A stretch of DNA of 64,000 bases from Anaerolineales bacterium (GTDB taxonomy: Bacteria > Chloroflexota > Anaerolineae > Anaerolineales > UBA11579). Made by a program: the position numbers and the translations under genes. Below the pieces are notes generated by a model. It saw only the letters and a list, made by a program, of their open reading frames with translations, was not told the DNA's origin and did no database searches. The stretch covers positions 575,981-639,980 of the forward strand of contig JAHBVB010000002.1 in the NCBI GenBank assembly GCA_019637805.1, in the 5' to 3' direction. Positions 3,084 through 11,380 of the stretch are shown here, piece after piece (positions within the stretch are counted from its first letter, which is position 1; each line of letters begins with the position of its first letter).

Positions 3084-3127
3084 GCGCCGATTCTAGCATG
3101 GACTGAATGAGGTTCGACCATGGATGA

Positions 3128-3155
3128 AAAAGAGGCGAGTTCGCTCGCCTCTTTT
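3128..3155. terminator. Intrinsic terminator after the TPR/peptidase cluster
   Basis: A 12-bp perfect stem (AAAAGAGGCGAG and complement) with a TTCG tetraloop and flanking T and A tracts lies between the stop of the gingipain-like gene and smpB. It separates the two minus-strand units. Confidence 0.85.
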
Positions 3156-3157
3156 GT

Positions 3158-5812
3158 TTAGCGGGACACGGCCATCTTGACCACTTTGCCTTGGGCGTCC
3201 ATGGTGATGCGGGCATATTGCTGATGCACTAGGTTGCCCGCCGGGATTTTCTTGCTCAGGGTTACCAGGCTGCGAGTGGGCATCAATCCGGCCGATTTGC
3301 TGTGCAGATGCGGCAGCGTGCAGTCGTGGCCGCGGCAATCGGTGTGCTCATGGCTGAGGCTGACCTGGCTGCCTTGCATGCCGGGCAGGTACTCGGCCAC
3401 CACCGACTTGATCGTGGCCAGTGTGTTTTCGGGCAAGCGTTCCATGGGCACGGCTTCACTCTCGCTCAGATCGCAAATGGCTTTGAGTTCGCTGGCTTGG
3501 TCTTCCACACGCAGGATGCGCTTAGGAGTCTCGCCCTCGGCGGTTACATGCGCCAGCGGGTCGCCGTACAGCACGAACGAGATCAGCGTCTTCTGGTCTT
3601 CACCGTCCAGGTAGCCCTGGCGGCGATGCATGGTCTGAGCCATGGCGATCTTGGCGCGGCGCAGCGCTTCGCCCACCGGGTGGCCCTCATTCAACAGCTT
3701 CCAGAAAGCCTGCCCGAGCAGGTCGGCAGCGATCAGCGGCGTGGTTACCGAGCCGTAGGAAGTTACTGTGGACCCGATGACGGCTTTGCTGCCTGAGTCC
3801 AGAAATTTGAGCGAGAGGGCATTCTCCACGGTCTTATCGTAAATGTGCGCACCAAAGCAGGCTTCGCTGAAGACCACCTGTGGGGCGCGGCCGCTGTTGA
3901 TCACATCGCTGGGGCGCAGCGCCACCGGATAGTCCGGACCGCTGGGGGTGCTGAACGGGTCACGCTGACCGTACCATTCAGCCGTTTCCGCCAAGCCGTG
4001 CAGGTTGAAATAGGCCAGCTGCAGGGGTCTGTTGGCCTCTTTAGGCAATTGTCCTGTGCCGGTGGGCGGGCTGATCGAGAGCTGGCTGGGATCGCTGATG
4101 GTGCGGTAGACGGAGTGCGAGGCACGCTGCCAAATCTCGGCGCTGTAGCCAAAGCTGCTGCGCTTGGGCCGCCACAGGCCGAAGAAGGCCAGCAGGCGGT
4201 TAACCATCCCCTGCACGCGGGCCGCCGGGCTGGGCGTCTGCCCGCGCACCACCACGATCTGGTTGAGTTTCTTGACCAGCATGGCCGGGTCGCTGCCTTC
4301 GCCGTTGGGCAGGCGGCCCAGCGGCCAGGTCGGTACAAAATAGTTCTCATCCAGGCTGGCATACGGGTTGTCCGAAGGGACATCAGCATCTTCATCGTCC
4401 ACCGGATTGGGCAGGCGGTGGAAGGGGATGATCTGCGGCCCGCCGACGATCAGCACCGCGCCGACCATCTCGCCCTTTTGGCGCAGGGTTTCATCCAGAT
4501 CGGCCAGCAAGTGCTTGATCGCCCAGGGGTCATTGGTATCCACAGCTTGCAGCTCGAATGGTTGCAAACTGTCGCCGCGGTCGGCGTAGACCAGATGGCT
4601 GGTCCAGTAAGGCAGCGCTTCGGTGGCGGCCACCACGGCCTTCAGCGCCTGGTCCACTTTGGCCAGACCTTCGGGGCCGTACTGTTCCTGTAGAGCTTCC
4701 TGCGAAGTCAGCACCACATAGGCAGGACGGCGACCATCAGCGCGCAGCAGTAGATCTTCCGCCTTGGTGGTGATGTCTTCCAATTCCACCGGCATTTCTG
4801 TTTGCACGGACTTGGCTTCCTGGTCCTCCGGCAGCGCATACTCCACGCCCAATTCGTCCACATATGTGTTGGCCGCCTGCTTGGGCGGCACGCGCTGGAC
4901 TTTGGGGCGGCGCAGCTTGGGCAGCTCTGCTTCTGTCTGCACGGGCTGCTTGGAGGTTGGTTGCACGGTTTTGGCCGCGGCCAGATTACCATCCCCGGCG
5001 GGCAGCTGGTTCCAGTGCAAAGCGGCGGCCACTGCGGCGGGGATCGCAACGCCGATGGGGTGGCTGAGCTGCTCCGGCCAAATGGCGGCAAAGCGATGCG
5101 CGGCGCCCCATAGCCGGGCCGGCACCTGGCCGCTAATGTCTTCGGCCGCGCAGCCGTGCAGCAGGTCGATGGCTTCGTCTCCCAGGCCGCTCTCCATGCG
5201 GTTTGCGGCGGCCAGCAGGCGGAACTGCAGGCAGCTCGGCCAGCGCTCGCGGTAGAGCTCCACCAGGTTGTGGCGCGCCTGCCAGGAAAGCTGCTGGGTC
5301 TCTGCGATCTTGAGGTGCAGCAAAGCGGGCAGGGGCGAAGGCGGCTGGTTGAGCAGGGCACCCTGGATGTGCTTTTCGGCAGCCTGCAGGTCCCCTGCGG
5401 CCAGCGCTTGCTGGGCGCCGATCAAGCCCTGCGCCCAGGGTTGGATGTCCGCAGGAGCTTCTACGAGCCCGCGCAAAACCATGACTGCCGCACGGGCCTC
5501 TTCGGCCAGTTCGGGTTTGAGGCGGCGGGCCATGCTGGCCAGCAGTTCCTGCGCTTGGATGAATTCGGGATCGACTTCGACCAAATGGATCAGTCCAGCC
5601 AATGCTTTTTCCGGCTTGGCCTCTTTGGCGTAGGCCTGCGCCGCGATGAATTCGATGAACAGATCATGTGGATAGCTTTGCAGCCAGTCCTGGGCCAGGC
5701 TGCGCACGAAGCGGGGTTCGCCCGCATCCAGAGCCGCCTGCAGCAGATGCAGTAGGCCGTTGCGGGTGATTTGCTTGCCGGCGCTCAGGGCGTGGTGAAG
5801 TTCGTGGGTCAT
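3158..5812 (-). CDS. TPR protein with C25 (gingipain)/caspase-like peptidase domain
   Basis: An 884-residue protein, third in its cluster. Residues 1-250 are helical repeats of TPR type. Residues about 280-345 are a proline- and charge-rich linker. Residues about 360-755 resemble clan CD peptidases, closest to the C25 gingipain layout: AVLIVGGPQIIPF (about 452-464), SDNPYASLDENYFVPTWPLGR (about 480-500), a His motif YFNLHGLAE with His605, a Cys motif VVFSEACFGAH with Cys652, and the closing SFVLYGDPLAHV. His605 and Cys652 would form the catalytic dyad. After the domain comes a His/Cys-dense stretch (about 820-838). No signal peptide is seen, so it is probably cytoplasmic. The start shares one base with the stop of the upstream TPR gene (TAATG), so the two are translationally coupled. 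The substrate is unknown; a CHAT-type assignment is an alternative. Confidence 0.75.
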   Translation of the reverse strand: MTHELHHALSAGKQITRNGLLHLLQAALDAGEPRFVRSLAQDWLQSYPHDLFIEFIAAQAYAKEAKPEKALAGLIHLVEVDPEFIQAQELLASMARRLKPELAEEARAAVMVLRGLVEAPADIQPWAQGLIGAQQALAAGDLQAAEKHIQGALLNQPPSPLPALLHLKIAETQQLSWQARHNLVELYRERWPSCLQFRLLAAANRMESGLGDEAIDLLHGCAAEDISGQVPARLWGAAHRFAAIWPEQLSHPIGVAIPAAVAAALHWNQLPAGDGNLAAAKTVQPTSKQPVQTEAELPKLRRPKVQRVPPKQAANTYVDELGVEYALPEDQEAKSVQTEMPVELEDITTKAEDLLLRADGRRPAYVVLTSQEALQEQYGPEGLAKVDQALKAVVAATEALPYWTSHLVYADRGDSLQPFELQAVDTNDPWAIKHLLADLDETLRQKGEMVGAVLIVGGPQIIPFHRLPNPVDDEDADVPSDNPYASLDENYFVPTWPLGRLPNGEGSDPAMLVKKLNQIVVVRGQTPSPAARVQGMVNRLLAFFGLWRPKRSSFGYSAEIWQRASHSVYRTISDPSQLSISPPTGTGQLPKEANRPLQLAYFNLHGLAETAEWYGQRDPFSTPSGPDYPVALRPSDVINSGRAPQVVFSEACFGAHIYDKTVENALSLKFLDSGSKAVIGSTVTSYGSVTTPLIAADLLGQAFWKLLNEGHPVGEALRRAKIAMAQTMHRRQGYLDGEDQKTLISFVLYGDPLAHVTAEGETPKRILRVEDQASELKAICDLSESEAVPMERLPENTLATIKSVVAEYLPGMQGSQVSLSHEHTDCRGHDCTLPHLHSKSAGLMPTRSLVTLSKKIPAGNLVHQQYARITMDAQGKVVKMAVSR

Positions 5813-8800
5813 TAGCCGGCTCCTATAGTTTGCGGTTGCTGCACCAGGTTCATGGCCATCACCGCCGCCAGCTGGCGTTGGATGTCTCGGTCACGCGGGG
5901 CCAGGTTGGCAGCCCGGCGCAGCGCTTGTTCGGCGGCAGGGTAGTCCTTGGCGTCTTTGAGCGCCAAGGCGGCTTCATAATGCGGAGCAGCGGCTTGCGG
6001 GGCGGCCTTGGCCGCCTGCTCGAAGGCATTCAACGCGGCAGTGTGTTGGCGGCGTGCCAGAAAGACGCGGGCGCGCTCCATATGGGCATCGAACAGTTGC
6101 GGGGCCAGACGAGCGGCTTCATCCAGATGGTGCAGCGCCTGGTCCAGGTTGCCGGCTTGCTTGAGCAGCTGTCCCAGATGGAATTCGATCGAGGCCAACA
6201 GATTACTGGCACTGCCTGCAGCCGCTTTCAGGGCACTTTGCGCCGATTGGACGGCGGCCGGCAGGTCCCCCATCAAGGCCAACATTTGCGAAAGGGCGAA
6301 CTGCACCTCGACGCGGTCGGCATGTTTCCGGGCCAGCTGCTTCAGGGCCTGCAGTCCTTCAGACTGGGCCAGCAGTTGGGCGCGGCGCAGCAGCAGCGGT
6401 ACTTCGTCCGCTGCGTGCTGGGCGGCGCGTTCCAACACCGCGACAGCGTCCGAGCTTTGTCCCAGGGCATACAGCGCTTCACCAAAGATGCGCAAGGCAT
6501 CCGCATCCCGCGGGGCCAGCTCCAAGGCTTGTTGGATGATGTTCTTGGCGCGCGGCGCGTCGTCGCCTTCTAGGGTCAGTTGGGCTTGCAGGATAAGGGC
6601 TGCCGGGTCTTGCGGCGCGGCCTGCTGGGCACGTTCGGCCAGGGACTTGGCCGCGACTGCATCGCCTGACTGGCGCTTGGCCTGGGCCAGGGTCAGCAGA
6701 TAACTGGCCTGGTCTGGGGCCAGCTCCACGGCCTTTTCCAGATTGTCGATTGCAGCAGGCAGCAGCCTGGCTTCGGACTGGGCCATCCCGAGGGAGAAGA
6801 AGTGTTCAGCTTGCTCCGGCTCCAGCTCTGCGGCTAGTTGGAAGTGCTGGCTGGCCTCAGCCAGGCGGCCCTGGCTGTGCTGCAGCTTGCCTGCCAGAGC
6901 TTGCCAAGCGGGCTGCTCTGGCCAGAGGGATAGCGCAACTTGGATATAGTGCAAAGCGCGCTCGGTCTCTCCAGCCTGAAGTGCTTGCTGGGCGGCCAGC
7001 GCTTGAACCGGCGCCACACGGGGCATTTGGCTGGCGGCGGCTTGCAGTAATCCGTAGCTGTCGCCGCTGTCCGGGCTGAGGGCGCGCTGCAGTAAGACTT
7101 CAGGGGCGTCCCAATGGGGCTGCAGCAGGTATTGGACCTGGTGGCTTTGCTCGCCCAGGGCGAAAAGCAGGGCGGCCGCTTCGCCGGCGCAGGCCGGGTA
7201 TTCGGCGGGCAGCCCTTGCAGGTCTACGGCTTGGCCGAAGCGCAGCGCGGCGCGCTGCAGCCAGCCCGCCAAGTGAGCTTGCATGCGCGGATCATTATTG
7301 GCCAGCCCGGCGGCTTGGAACGCCTTGCTGGCGGTTCCGTAGGCTTCTTCATTCAGCGTTGCGGCTGGCAGGCCGCGGGTGGCGCCGGCTGCGCGGCACA
7401 GGTGCTGCCATTCCGCTTGGCGCACCAGCGCACGGCCCAGGCCAAACTGAGCGGCGGGCAATCCCGGGTGCTCTTTGCCCAGGCGGTTATGCAGGTCAAT
7501 GCTGGTGTCCCAGTCGTTGAGGCTTTCTGCCGCGGCGGCCAGCCCCAGCAGGCTGAAGACGTCTGGCGTGCGGCTTGGCTGGCTGGCTTGGCCGAACTCG
7601 GCGCGGGCTGTGCTCAGGTCACCGCGGGCGGCGGCCAGGCGCACTTGCAGGGCCAGCAGGCGGGCGCTGTCGAGTGGCACCAGGGTGTGCAGGGCGGTCA
7701 GCTGCTCGGTGGCGGCCACTTCCATCCCAGCGGACAGGTGCAACTCTGCTTGCAGGTAGAGCAGATCTGCGCTTTCACTCAGGTCCGTGCCTGCCAAAAT
7801 TTCAGCAGCGCGCTGGTCGTACAGGTTGAGTAATGCCAATTCCGCCGCATTCTGGATATAGTCCGCCTGGCCCGGATGGTGCTGCAAGGCCGCTTCGGCC
7901 GCCTGGAGGGCGCCGAACCAATCGGCTTGCTGGCGCAGCAGTTGGGCTTTGGCGTGCAATAAGCTGGCATCGCTCGGGCGCAGTTCCAATGCAGCGCTGA
8001 GCGCTTCCAGGGCGGCCTGGGGCCGGTCCAGTTGCAGCAAAACCCCGGCCTTAGCGGAGAGCAGAGCCGGCTTGGCAGGTGCAATGTCCAAGGCTTTTTC
8101 TAGAGCGCTAAGCGCTTTGCCAGGCTGCTCTGCCCGAGAATAAGCCTGGCTGAGCCCAAGCAGCCAATCGGCATTGAGGGGTTCCAACTTCAGGGCCTTT
8201 TGATAATAGGCAATGCTCTCTTTGGCCTGGCCATTTTGGCGCAGAAATTCAGCCGTTTGGCTGAGGATCTGGCTGTCACCACTGTCCAAAATAGACTTGA
8301 AGGTGGACAGGGCGATTGCTTGGGTGGCGCCGTTCCATTGCAGCTTGCCCAGCCCAAAGGCCAGGCGCGGGCTGGGCGATCCGGCAACCACCTGCTTGCT
8401 CAAGGCCCGGCAAGCCTCAGCGCTCTTGCCCAGGGCATCCATCTGCTCGGCAAACCACAGGATGGTTTCTTCGTCTTCGGGTTGACCCAGGTAGACCTTT
8501 TGGGCCAGCAGGGCTGCCTGTTCGGGACGCCCCGCCAATTGGTTGGCAGCGCATAGCGCCTGCAGAACCTGCAAGTCGCCAGGTTCGTGGATATCCAAAA
8601 TTTCCAGCGTATCAATGGCGGCTTTGGCGTCGCCCTGCTTCATCTCTGCCTGGGCCTTGCCCAGCAGCAGGCGTTTGCGCCAATCAGCCTGCTTGCCCAG
8701 TTCGGTTTGTTGGGCGGCATCGTATTGGGTGATGGCTTCGGTCTGGCGGCCCTGGGTGGCCAGCGCCTCGGCCAGCAGGCCAGCGGCTTCGGCGGGTGCA

Positions 8801-10923
8801 CCCGGCAGAGCCAGGGCGGCGCGCAGGCTGCTTTCGGCGGCGGGGATTTGAGAGTCCAGCGCCAGCTGGGCGCGGGCCAGGTCCAGCAGCAATTGCGCAT
8901 CTTGCGGATAGGCCGCCTGCGCCAGACTGAGCGCGGAGAGGGCCAGTTGGTGTTCCCCGGTTTGCAGCCACAGCTGGCCCAACTGGCGGGCGATCTGCGC
9001 ATTCTCTGGGAACACATTGTGGGCCGCCTGCAGGCATAGGCGCGCCTCTTCGGATTGGTCAAGCTGCAAGTACAGCTCTGCGCGTTGCAGGGCGATTTCC
9101 TGGGCCAGTTTTCCCTCAGCCTCGTCTTGCGCCAGTTGTGCGGCCAGCTCCAAGGCTTGCAGGGCGGGGTGCTGCTGGCCGAGAGCCAGATAAATGCCGG
9201 CCAGCCTGGCTTGCAGCCCGGCAGTCACCGGGCAATATTGCAGAGCAGTCGTCAGGCTGGCCAGGGCGGCCTCATGGCGGTCTTTGGCTTGCTGCAGATC
9301 GACCAGCGCCACCCAGGCATCCAACTGGGTGGGCGATAATTCCGTAGCGCGCTGCAGGTACTCTGCCGCGCTTTCTTCGTCGCCTTCGGTCAGCAGGGCG
9401 CGACCCATCAAGGCCAGGGCGCGACCGCTGCCCGGGCGCAGGGCCAGAGCCTGCTGGCTGGCGGCCAGAGTTTCCGCAGGTTGGCCGGCGGCCAAAGCAA
9501 CCGCGGCCAGCGCCAGCCAATCTTCGAAAGTGGGTTGGTCGGCATGCTCCAGCGCGGCTTTCCATTCGATCAGTGCATCTTCGGGCGCGTCTTCCTGCAG
9601 CGCCTCAGCCAGCAAGCGGCGGATGGCGCTGTCTTCTGGGGCCAGGGCGCTGGCCAATTGGGCATGGGCCAGTCCTTCTGCCTGGTCGCCGTTCTCGAAG
9701 AGCAGCTTGCTGAGCAAAGCGGCATTTTGAGCATCGTTGCCTTGCAGCTCCAGCGCAGCCTTGGCGGCCGACTCAGCCTCGAGGCGCAGGTCCATGCTAA
9801 CGAAGAATTCGCCCAGTTCATGCAGTAGGCGCACCTTTTCCATGTCTTCGGCGGTGCTGCCTTTTTTGCCGGCGGCTTGCAGGGCTGCCAGCGCCATTTC
9901 TTTGGCTTCGTCCTCCTCGCCGGACTTTAGCGAGACCTTGGCGGCAGACAATAAGGCCGCTGGGCGGCGGGAGACTTGCTTGGCAGCCGCCAGTATCTTG
10001 GGGTCTGCCATCTGGGCGCTGACCTGCACGAAGGCCAGGGTTTCGGCATCTTCGCCATTGGCTTCAGCCACTTTGGCGGCCAGATCCATTTGCAGCTGCT
10101 GTGAGACTTCCCAGGCGGCTTGCAGCAGGGGGGCGGCGCGCTCGGCCTGCCCACCGATCTGGTAGACCTCGGCTTGCAACAAGAGGCGCTGGATCTCGCT
10201 GAGATCGTCGCTGCGCTCTCCTGCAGCCACCAGATCGTCCAGCATGAATTGGGCGGCCTGCTGGGCCAGCTCGGGAGCATAGGGCGCCAGGGCACGCAGC
10301 AGGTCGATCAACTGGGTCAGTGGATACCCCTGGATGATCTCCAGCAAGTGAGCTGCTTGCACATCCAGCGGGTAGGGGTTGGCGATCAACGCATGCAACC
10401 CGATGGGATGCAGGGCAGCCTGGGAGGGCGCCAGCAGCGTTTCCAGCAGTTCGTGCGAGCGTGGCGTGACGCCCAACAAGCAGGCGGCAGGCAGCAGCCA
10501 GTAGTCTGCTTGGGCGATGCTCAGGTCATGCGGCAGTTGTTCCCAGCTGTTGAGCAGGCGGCGGCGCTCGCGCAGGGCCAGGGCCAACAGGGTGGCCTGG
10601 CGCAGGTCCGGCGCACTGGCAGCCGTCGGGTCGGCGGCCAGTTGTTCATAGGCAGCCGCGGCTTGGTAACGCAGCTTCTCGCTGACGGGCTGCATAGGGT
10701 CAGCGCGCAGTGCGTCAAACTGATCTGCGTGACCCAGTTGCAACAGTCCAAGGAAGGCAGGCGCCCAACGGCTGCGCTCGCCAGCGGCCGCATCCAGTGC
10801 GGCCGCACCCAGCGCACCCTGCAGCTCTGCCCACACCTGGGCATTGTTGCGCAGGGCGGCCACCACCACCGGCCAATCAGCCTGCGGCAGGCGCTTTTTG
10901 ATGTCAGCGATGAAGGCGGTCAT
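5812..10923 (-). CDS. Giant TPR alpha-solenoid protein (1703 aa)
   Basis: Essentially the whole length is tetratricopeptide-like helical pairs, recognisable from repeated patterns such as ALEKAVELAPDQASYLLTLA and AEQALRRAANLAPRDRDIQR. I see no enzymatic domain, signal peptide or membrane segment, so it should be a large scaffold for protein binding. The frame is open further upstream, to a GTG at 11217, but that part overlaps the preceding gene in another frame and is His/Arg-rich nonsense. The ATG at 10923 (MTAFIADIKKRLPQADWP) is the sensible start, 26 bp after the membrane gene. It is coupled to the downstream gingipain-like gene by TAATG. The function is unknown; the pairing suggests it recruits or restrains the peptidase. 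Confidence 0.85.
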   Translation of the reverse strand: MTAFIADIKKRLPQADWPVVVAALRNNAQVWAELQGALGAAALDAAAGERSRWAPAFLGLLQLGHADQFDALRADPMQPVSEKLRYQAAAAYEQLAADPTAASAPDLRQATLLALALRERRRLLNSWEQLPHDLSIAQADYWLLPAACLLGVTPRSHELLETLLAPSQAALHPIGLHALIANPYPLDVQAAHLLEIIQGYPLTQLIDLLRALAPYAPELAQQAAQFMLDDLVAAGERSDDLSEIQRLLLQAEVYQIGGQAERAAPLLQAAWEVSQQLQMDLAAKVAEANGEDAETLAFVQVSAQMADPKILAAAKQVSRRPAALLSAAKVSLKSGEEDEAKEMALAALQAAGKKGSTAEDMEKVRLLHELGEFFVSMDLRLEAESAAKAALELQGNDAQNAALLSKLLFENGDQAEGLAHAQLASALAPEDSAIRRLLAEALQEDAPEDALIEWKAALEHADQPTFEDWLALAAVALAAGQPAETLAASQQALALRPGSGRALALMGRALLTEGDEESAAEYLQRATELSPTQLDAWVALVDLQQAKDRHEAALASLTTALQYCPVTAGLQARLAGIYLALGQQHPALQALELAAQLAQDEAEGKLAQEIALQRAELYLQLDQSEEARLCLQAAHNVFPENAQIARQLGQLWLQTGEHQLALSALSLAQAAYPQDAQLLLDLARAQLALDSQIPAAESSLRAALALPGAPAEAAGLLAEALATQGRQTEAITQYDAAQQTELGKQADWRKRLLLGKAQAEMKQGDAKAAIDTLEILDIHEPGDLQVLQALCAANQLAGRPEQAALLAQKVYLGQPEDEETILWFAEQMDALGKSAEACRALSKQVVAGSPSPRLAFGLGKLQWNGATQAIALSTFKSILDSGDSQILSQTAEFLRQNGQAKESIAYYQKALKLEPLNADWLLGLSQAYSRAEQPGKALSALEKALDIAPAKPALLSAKAGVLLQLDRPQAALEALSAALELRPSDASLLHAKAQLLRQQADWFGALQAAEAALQHHPGQADYIQNAAELALLNLYDQRAAEILAGTDLSESADLLYLQAELHLSAGMEVAATEQLTALHTLVPLDSARLLALQVRLAAARGDLSTARAEFGQASQPSRTPDVFSLLGLAAAAESLNDWDTSIDLHNRLGKEHPGLPAAQFGLGRALVRQAEWQHLCRAAGATRGLPAATLNEEAYGTASKAFQAAGLANNDPRMQAHLAGWLQRAALRFGQAVDLQGLPAEYPACAGEAAALLFALGEQSHQVQYLLQPHWDAPEVLLQRALSPDSGDSYGLLQAAASQMPRVAPVQALAAQQALQAGETERALHYIQVALSLWPEQPAWQALAGKLQHSQGRLAEASQHFQLAAELEPEQAEHFFSLGMAQSEARLLPAAIDNLEKAVELAPDQASYLLTLAQAKRQSGDAVAAKSLAERAQQAAPQDPAALILQAQLTLEGDDAPRAKNIIQQALELAPRDADALRIFGEALYALGQSSDAVAVLERAAQHAADEVPLLLRRAQLLAQSEGLQALKQLARKHADRVEVQFALSQMLALMGDLPAAVQSAQSALKAAAGSASNLLASIEFHLGQLLKQAGNLDQALHHLDEAARLAPQLFDAHMERARVFLARRQHTAALNAFEQAAKAAPQAAAPHYEAALALKDAKDYPAAEQALRRAANLAPRDRDIQRQLAAVMAMNLVQQPQTIGAG

Positions 10924-10949
10924 GAGCGCCGTTCCGATGCCAGCGCGGC

Positions 10950-11282
10950 TTAGCCGGCCCAGTTGACTTGCAGCACGACCCAGTAGGCAGCGGCCATCAT
11001 GCCCAGGCCCAGCGCAGTCATGAAAATGCCTACGCCAGCGGCCGTGCGCACCAGGGTCGAAACCGTGTCCAGCAGGGCGGTGGCGTTGCTGACCAGGGCG
11101 GAGACATCTTCGGCGATGCCCTTCTGGACCATCTTGGTGGCCGTGTTGCTGATGTTCTTGATGTCTTTGTTCATGGTGCGGGTCAGCAGCACGAACAAAC
11201 CAATGGTGAGCGTGCACATGCCCAGAAAGAACATGGCGGCGCCCATGACCAGCAGCGTATCGGTTTGGGTGATTTCGTACAT
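10950..11282 (-). CDS. Small two-helix membrane protein, first gene of the TPR/peptidase cluster
   Basis: A 110-residue protein with one hydrophobic helix near the N-terminus (LLVMGAAMFFLGMCTLTIGL), a central polar amphipathic region (about residues 37-80, rich in Asn, Thr and Asp) and a second hydrophobic helix near the C-terminus (GIFMTALGLGMMAAAYWVVL). The start at 11282 (MYEITQ) is chosen because AGGAG is seven bases upstream of it, while the other ATG at 11288 lies almost on top of that site. It is the first gene of the unit, followed by the giant TPR gene. I do not recognise the family. It may anchor the TPR scaffold to the membrane. Confidence 0.75.
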   Translation of the reverse strand: MYEITQTDTLLVMGAAMFFLGMCTLTIGLFVLLTRTMNKDIKNISNTATKMVQKGIAEDVSALVSNATALLDTVSTLVRTAAGVGIFMTALGLGMMAAAYWVVLQVNWAG

Positions 11283-11380
11283 CGTCATTCTCCTGTCAAA
11301 GGTTTGCCTGCAGAAGCAGACAAATGCCTAGTTGCAAGATGCATGCCTAAATTTGCTTTCGGCGGCAAGCACAGGAAGGA

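Follow-up and report, generated by a model that had tools for sequence, protein, structure and literature searches.

A caspase-fold peptidase operon and a second FtsZ gene in a predicted sigma-54 regulon of the Anaerolineales

The window analysed here is a stretch of 64,000 nucleotides on contig 2 of a 2.34-Mb genome. It carries an operon of three genes, A, B and C, for a small membrane protein, a giant TPR protein and a predicted cysteine peptidase. We find that the operon is a conserved component of the order Anaerolineales and that it appears to be controlled together with a second FtsZ gene (FtsZ2) by sigma-54. In our estimate the chances are about even that A-B-C forms the proteolytic part of a dedicated sigma-54 regulon which acts on cell division or the septal envelope in this order. 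An earlier note on this DNA had treated the three genes as a stand-alone unit. This view has to be widened as the unit belongs to a larger regulon with the genes D, FtsZ2 and F. The sigma-54 promoter at 11333-11348 and the other genes of the regulon, which lie elsewhere in the genome, are not part of that note. The parts belong to known families and the combination is without known counterpart; it suggests that filamentous Chloroflexota have a switchable system, so far undescribed, that acts on cell division or the cell envelope.

The operon and its predicted protease

The layout of the operon given in the earlier note was correct in every detail on re-check, that is, the coordinates and lengths, the 26-bp spacing between A and B, the TAATG overlap at the B/C junction, the shared direction and a terminator of its own (Table 1). 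The open reading frame listing prolongs B to an upstream GTG within A. The terminator is absent from the output of the pattern scanner for the window.

Table 1. Coordinates of the features in the window and of gene F in genome G000
Feature	Position	Strand	Remark
Sigma-54 (-24/-12) promoter	11333-11348	-	AGGCATGCATCTTGCA; 60 bp upstream of the A start codon
A	10950-11288	-	112 aa; two-helix membrane protein, predicted membrane anchor
B	5812-10923	-	1703 aa, counted from ATG; TPR solenoid
C	3158-5812	-	884 aa; TPR and predicted C25/gingipain-fold peptidase, F-type domain at the C-terminus
C residues 15-270, TPR-like helical repeats	5003-5770	-	missing from the shorter C proteins (493-600 aa) outside the order
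C residues 358-763, caspase/gingipain-fold catalytic region	3524-4741	-	predicted model
Predicted catalytic His605 of C	3998-4000	-	invariant
Predicted catalytic Cys652 of C	3857-3859	-	invariant
C residues 797-884, helix and strands ending ARITMDAQGKVVKMAVSR	3161-3424	-	homologous to stand-alone F
Intrinsic terminator of the A-B-C operon	3127-3151	-	GAGGCGAG-CGAA-CTCGCCTC-TTTTT, perfect
F	G000:C2:874529-874768 (L116:8530-8769)		79 aa; starts three bases after FtsZ2

Protein A has no curated Pfam match. It contains two hydrophobic stretches with peaks at about residues 17-35 (2.3) and 89-107 (1.5), in agreement with the two-helix membrane protein that had been proposed to head the unit, and the loop between them is amphipathic and carries the conserved motif QSARxxQKGxxED. 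A hydropathy scan of B and C finds no stretch above 1.4 in either protein. B matches many Pfam TPR families, as expected for the giant TPR protein recognized from the letters alone.

The model of C suggests a C25/gingipain-fold cysteine peptidase of clan CD, and its activity is predicted. C scores 51.3 bits against Pfam Peptidase_C25 (cut-off 23, E = 1.4e-13), and 17.6 bits against the CHAT profile, which is under the cut-off of 24. A sequence search of the PDB with C returned nothing significant. The AlphaFold2 model (37 sequences, pLDDT 83) comprises a TPR region, a linker of low confidence (residues 270-356), the catalytic region and a small C-terminal domain. When compared by VIA-align, the model superimposes best on the gingipain RgpB (Z 32.1 over 310 residues, rmsd 2.8) and Kgp (Z 29.4), followed by separase (Z 14-16) and Csx29 (Z about 14). 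Structure prediction and fold search thus agree with the C25-like, caspase-fold core suggested before. The His605 and Cys652 residues were found exactly where the earlier note had placed them; both are unchanged in 38 of 38 homologues and in 80 of 80 GTDB loci. We also noticed a His/Cys-rich insert, HEHTDCRGHDCTLPHLH, at about residues 820-840 of C, possibly a metal site, which recurs in close relatives and is not invariant.

Distribution and origin of the module

We examined 61 genomes, the source genome and 60 relatives, 42 of which were graded good. C is present in 50 of the 61, nearly always as a single copy, and in exactly one copy in 38 of the 42 good genomes of the order; the A family is found in 37 of these 42. 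Reactors, sediments and groundwater are the origin of many of the records carrying the module. Viral contigs contained no relatives of C. Each of the 61 GTDB loci for which 7.3 kb or more of upstream sequence is available has the genes in the order A-B-C and in the same direction; in 59 of them B and C overlap or are separated by at most 18 bp. The three genes are therefore regularly together, and regular separation, a possibility raised earlier, was not seen. Two genomes (G037 and G044) have A-B and C apart. In another one (G060, L074:5454-8482) A adjoins C without B in between, though the rest of its family has B. Relatives of several families have an S41 PDZ protease gene near C (L057:1907-3067, L058:11975-13162, L061:11776-12933, L067:8703-9704), which is absent from the window.

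The module is missing from two families. In family f11 C is absent in 11 of 11 genomes of one sample and also in further genomes, in f6 it is absent in both, and the two families are without A, C, RpoN, D and the second FtsZ. For f11 the joint loss of RpoN, A, C, D and FtsZ2 was seen in three genomes (G033, G046, G058), C being absent in all those sampled. Since the losses are confined to two families, the co-occurrence of these genes rests on few independent events. The f6 and f11 genomes divide all the same, so the regulon is not essential for division. Conversely, loci from other Chloroflexota (for example L276-L279) carry A-B-C with neither D nor FtsZ2 within a 19-kb stretch and with no sigma-54 site, and A-B-C can therefore work without D and FtsZ2. 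In f71 (L280:1-18001) a short C-like protein of 558 aa is encoded near a protein with an F-type domain, and A and B are absent in the stretch.

The scaffold B gives a hint to the origin of the module. B of the window has no NACHT match and no Walker A, and the N-terminal Walker A of NACHT was not found in the B proteins of the order that we inspected. Most B proteins from outside the order, however, have a Walker A near the N-terminus; several match Pfam NACHT (L277, E = 3e-12), and TPR-S matches are found as well. Two B proteins from outside the order (L082, L084) are also without the N-terminal Walker A. Other members of the class with the NACHT form of B do carry D, FtsZ2 and F, and genes for an amidase (Amidase_2), MraZ, LysM/GH and LCP proteins lie between or beside C and FtsZ2. 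As B has a NACHT NTPase outside the order, A-B-C probably descends from a NACHT-TPR/caspase-fold pair. The simplest sequence of events, which we put forward as a proposal, would be that such a module was linked to D, FtsZ2 and F, and that NACHT was then lost and sigma-54 control fixed in the Anaerolineales. The earlier comparison of B and C with sensor/protease pairs gains weight from the NACHT NTPase of other Chloroflexota.

Such an ancestry could suggest programmed death or antiphage defence, in which an apoptosome-like NACHT/TPR-caspase module would respond to a trigger by killing or arresting the cell, and sigma-54 and FtsZ2 would serve as arrest arms further downstream. The NACHT-TPR form of B in other classes, its TPR-S matches, the caspase fold of C and the membrane partner fit this picture, and the theme resembles the conflict systems of multicellular bacteria (PMC7159879). 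However, the module is near-universal, single-copy and conserved through the order, and so it does not look like a sporadic defence island. Furthermore, the PADLOC defence models match neither A nor C and give weak TPR matches only for B, the inspected B proteins of the order are without the N-terminal Walker A, and the operon is co-regulated with FtsZ2 and D. We have therefore dropped a defence island as the main reading, and defence, left open as a role by the earlier note, is no longer the default. As an explanation for the module of the order we regard a death or antiphage effector as improbable.

Sigma-54 control and the second FtsZ

Of 45 genomes, 41 have a sigma-54 site with at least 10/12 matches at a distance of 38-66 bp upstream of A. 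Among the rpoN-positive genomes it is found in 37 of 41, versus 0.4 expected from dinucleotide shuffles. It also precedes A in 4 of 4 genomes for which no RpoN was found in the assembly. D orthologues are preceded by a sigma-54 promoter in all 17 genomes that have D at a distance from C, and in 9 of the 13 that have the two side by side. In G000 sites precede both the D-FtsZ2-F operon (C2:871841-874768) and rpoN, the first gene of an rpoN-HK-EBP operon (C2:749971-754541). The number of sites in a genome is no measure of regulon size: G033, which is without RpoN, has 12 strict matches genome-wide, as many as RpoN-positive genomes. The argument therefore comes only from the position of the sites relative to orthologous genes.

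The regulators themselves are few. The genome of the window has one RpoN, one soluble kinase and one activator without DNA-binding domain. Nearly all genomes with RpoN have a single copy of it, and as a rule one strong EBP, near rpoN; f6 and f11 are without RpoN (one f11 genome has a sub-threshold fragment). The EBP is a response-regulator AAA+ activator. HTH is absent in the seven order members scanned, and with 387-407 aa there is no room for it in 34 of 35 EBPs, the remaining one having 437 aa. The kinase HK is of PAS-type and apparently soluble in 33 of 34. HK-EBP adjoins A-B-C in 35 of 61 loci, and in three loci (L208, L234, L238) rpoN-HK-EBP-A-B-C-D-FtsZ2 is contiguous. A survey of 41 loci likewise finds an NtrC-type regulator, a histidine kinase, RpoN, D and FtsZ beside A-B-C in other families. 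In f19 a gene for a small response regulator with a single domain extends as far as the A start (L077:1318-1737, L080:2063-2491), possibly a second regulatory input. Taken together, promoters and gene neighbourhoods support well that A-B-C and D-FtsZ2-F share one sigma-54 regulon. That a second FtsZ is in the regulon along with A-B-C suggests a role in division or the envelope; the co-regulation does not prove that A-B-C and FtsZ2 form a joint complex.

Genomes with the module have two FtsZ proteins, those of f6 and f11 only one (with single exceptions in drafts). The canonical FtsZ1, encoded in the dcw cluster, follows ftsQ and ftsA in G000 and in f11, which rules out that FtsZ2 is the sole FtsZ. 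FtsZ1 forms one clade (support 100/100) and FtsZ2 falls outside of it. FtsZ2 has the Tubulin and FtsZ_C domains, the GGGTG[ST]G box and the C-terminal peptide. In Escherichia coli FtsZ, Asp212 in the T7 loop is needed for GTP hydrolysis. The equivalent residue is Asp in 19 of 19 FtsZ1 sequences and is replaced in 30 of 33 well-framed FtsZ2 sequences, in 23 of them by His (the mis-framed open reading frame of G051 was left out of these counts). The C-terminal peptide, which binds FtsA or SepF in other bacteria, is retained as a DxPxFLR-type peptide in 33 of 33. FtsZ2 thus is apparently GTPase-impaired and, with the T7-loop Asp lost and the C-terminal peptide kept, its filaments should be long-lived and lie within or next to the Z-ring.

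F lies directly 3' of FtsZ2 in 16-17 of 18 cases, is mostly 74-90 aa long and has no credible Pfam match. It is homologous to the last approximately 85 residues of C (hhalign probability 98.1%, E = 8.8e-14). This common domain is a link between the protease and the FtsZ2 operon that does not depend on the promoters.

For D no Pfam family was found. The best fold match of its model (pLDDT 78) is a Pseudomonas glycosyl hydrolase (4zn2), a likeness to glycosidases at the fold level only. The Glu of the NEP-like motif is intact in a duplicated domain of some relatives and variable in D, and D may therefore bind glycan rather than cleave it.

The regulon could also serve to sense wall damage, with C processing an envelope or membrane regulator and FtsZ2 and D aiding the repair of septal or side-wall peptidoglycan. 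Such an envelope-stress or wall-remodelling protease would suit the Amidase_2, LysM-GH and LCP genes of the other class members and the general link of sigma-54 with the bacterial exterior (PMC3162934). C, B and HK look cytosolic, however, FtsZ2 has retained the divisome C-terminal peptide, and D has no evident signal peptide nor a conserved putative catalytic Glu. We consider this explanation unlikely. That FtsZ2 remodels internal membranes or forms vesicles or compartments with A-B-C as a coat or scaffold instead of a protease switch, in the way proposed for the membrane-remodelling FtsZl1 systems (PMC2875224), is very doubtful since FtsZ2, even if a GTPase-impaired paralogue could be structural, is a true FtsZ with FtsZ_C and DxPxFLR, since the FtsZl1 paper mentions neither caspase nor TPR and since the invariant dyad of C argues for catalysis.

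A possible mechanism and known systems

We suggest that a proteolytic arm acting on division or the septal envelope, as a membrane-tethered switch of a conditional programme of division or septation based on FtsZ2, could operate in the following steps. The soluble PAS kinase would phosphorylate the single sigma-54 activator, and the RpoN polymerase would then produce three transcripts, rpoN-HK-EBP, A-B-C and D-FtsZ2-F. A might anchor a complex in the membrane, with B as the scaffold and probable sensor of the trigger and C kept in check until B changes its state. FtsZ2, presumably the slow FtsZ of the pair, would form its long-lived filaments in or beside the Z-ring, where its C-terminal peptide could serve the normal membrane tethers. 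Finally C, docked via its F-type domain or regulated by free F, would cleave a division-site or membrane substrate and thereby change or end the state of the FtsZ2 filament. The sequences establish which genes are present, their conservation, promoters, domain architecture and co-occurrence; phosphorelay, complex formation, a slow FtsZ2 and the site of action are what we infer.

A bolder version is tentative and in our opinion has the odds against it. In this version the Anaerolineales would have domesticated a NACHT-TPR/caspase-fold conflict module and put it to use in a developmental programme of division under sigma-54 control. The GTPase-impaired FtsZ2 would mark or stabilize a special septum, and the membrane-tethered protease would carry out its resolution, for instance as a fragmentation of the filament or a terminal division. 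This would be a bacterial counterpart of the separation controlled by separase. This would describe a possible route from a NACHT-type conflict module to a housekeeping role.

The regulon joins three usually separate subjects, caspase-fold proteases with solenoid sensors, FtsZ paralogues and sigma-54 control, and provides a concrete gene set for studying the division or break-up of Anaerolineae. Isolates that carry it exist, among them Leptolinea tardivitalis YMTK-2, Ornatilinea apprima P3M-1 and Bellilinea caldifistulae GOMI-1, and transcription and localization are therefore testable.

The earlier note knew of no described system with this composition, and we likewise found none with the make-up of A-B-C/FtsZ2 in the open-licence literature. 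Partial likenesses exist. The HTH-less EBP and the -24/-12 promoters before the target operons recall the regulons of group 5 bEBPs such as FlgR of Helicobacter and CtcC of Chlamydia, which are response-regulator AAA+ proteins without HTH (PMC7175178). FlgR and CtcC, however, control flagella or developmental secretion genes, and here the targets are a protease complex and a second FtsZ. The gingipains and PorU (C25) share the catalytic fold and His-Cys dyad and are the best Pfam and structure match to C; they are secreted, whereas C has no signal sequence, begins with TPR, ends in an F-type domain and is paired with a giant protein. TPR-CHAT/Csx29 (Craspase) also combines TPR with a caspase-fold protease. 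Csx29 is guided by a type III-E CRISPR effector, but neither a gRAMP/Cas7-11 partner nor a CRISPR array is a recurrent neighbour across the 41 surveyed loci, and A-B-C is a conserved core module. In the NACHT/STAND-caspase conflict systems (PMC7159879) we recognize the B form from outside the order, a NACHT-TPR protein beside a caspase-fold protease and a membrane protein. The sporadic, variable distribution to be expected of such a system is not seen for the single-copy C. Here no EACC, MoxR-vWA or death-domain parts were seen, the order is without NACHT, and sigma-54 and FtsZ2 are added. Separase likewise joins a caspase-fold clan CD core to a long helical solenoid, but it is eukaryotic, has the solenoid in cis and cuts cohesin, whereas the scaffold and the protease are encoded by two genes here, with a core nearer to the gingipains (Z 29-32).

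In functional terms the nearest parallel is HetF of filamentous Anabaena, a membrane protein with CHAT and TPR parts which belongs to the divisome (PMC8406250); a protein of the HetF kind would be expected at midcell and to interact with FtsI. Both cases combine a caspase-fold protease domain with TPR, membrane association, a filamentous bacterium and a link to division, which for A-B-C is a predicted one. HetF, however, unites CHAT, transmembrane and TPR parts in one polypeptide, whereas here three proteins are found, with a C25-type core in a protein without a TM-like stretch, a giant scaffold, a second FtsZ and sigma-54 control. If A-B-C indeed acts on division, the Anaerolineales would be, besides the cyanobacteria with HetF, the second bacterial lineage that ties a caspase-like protein to division.
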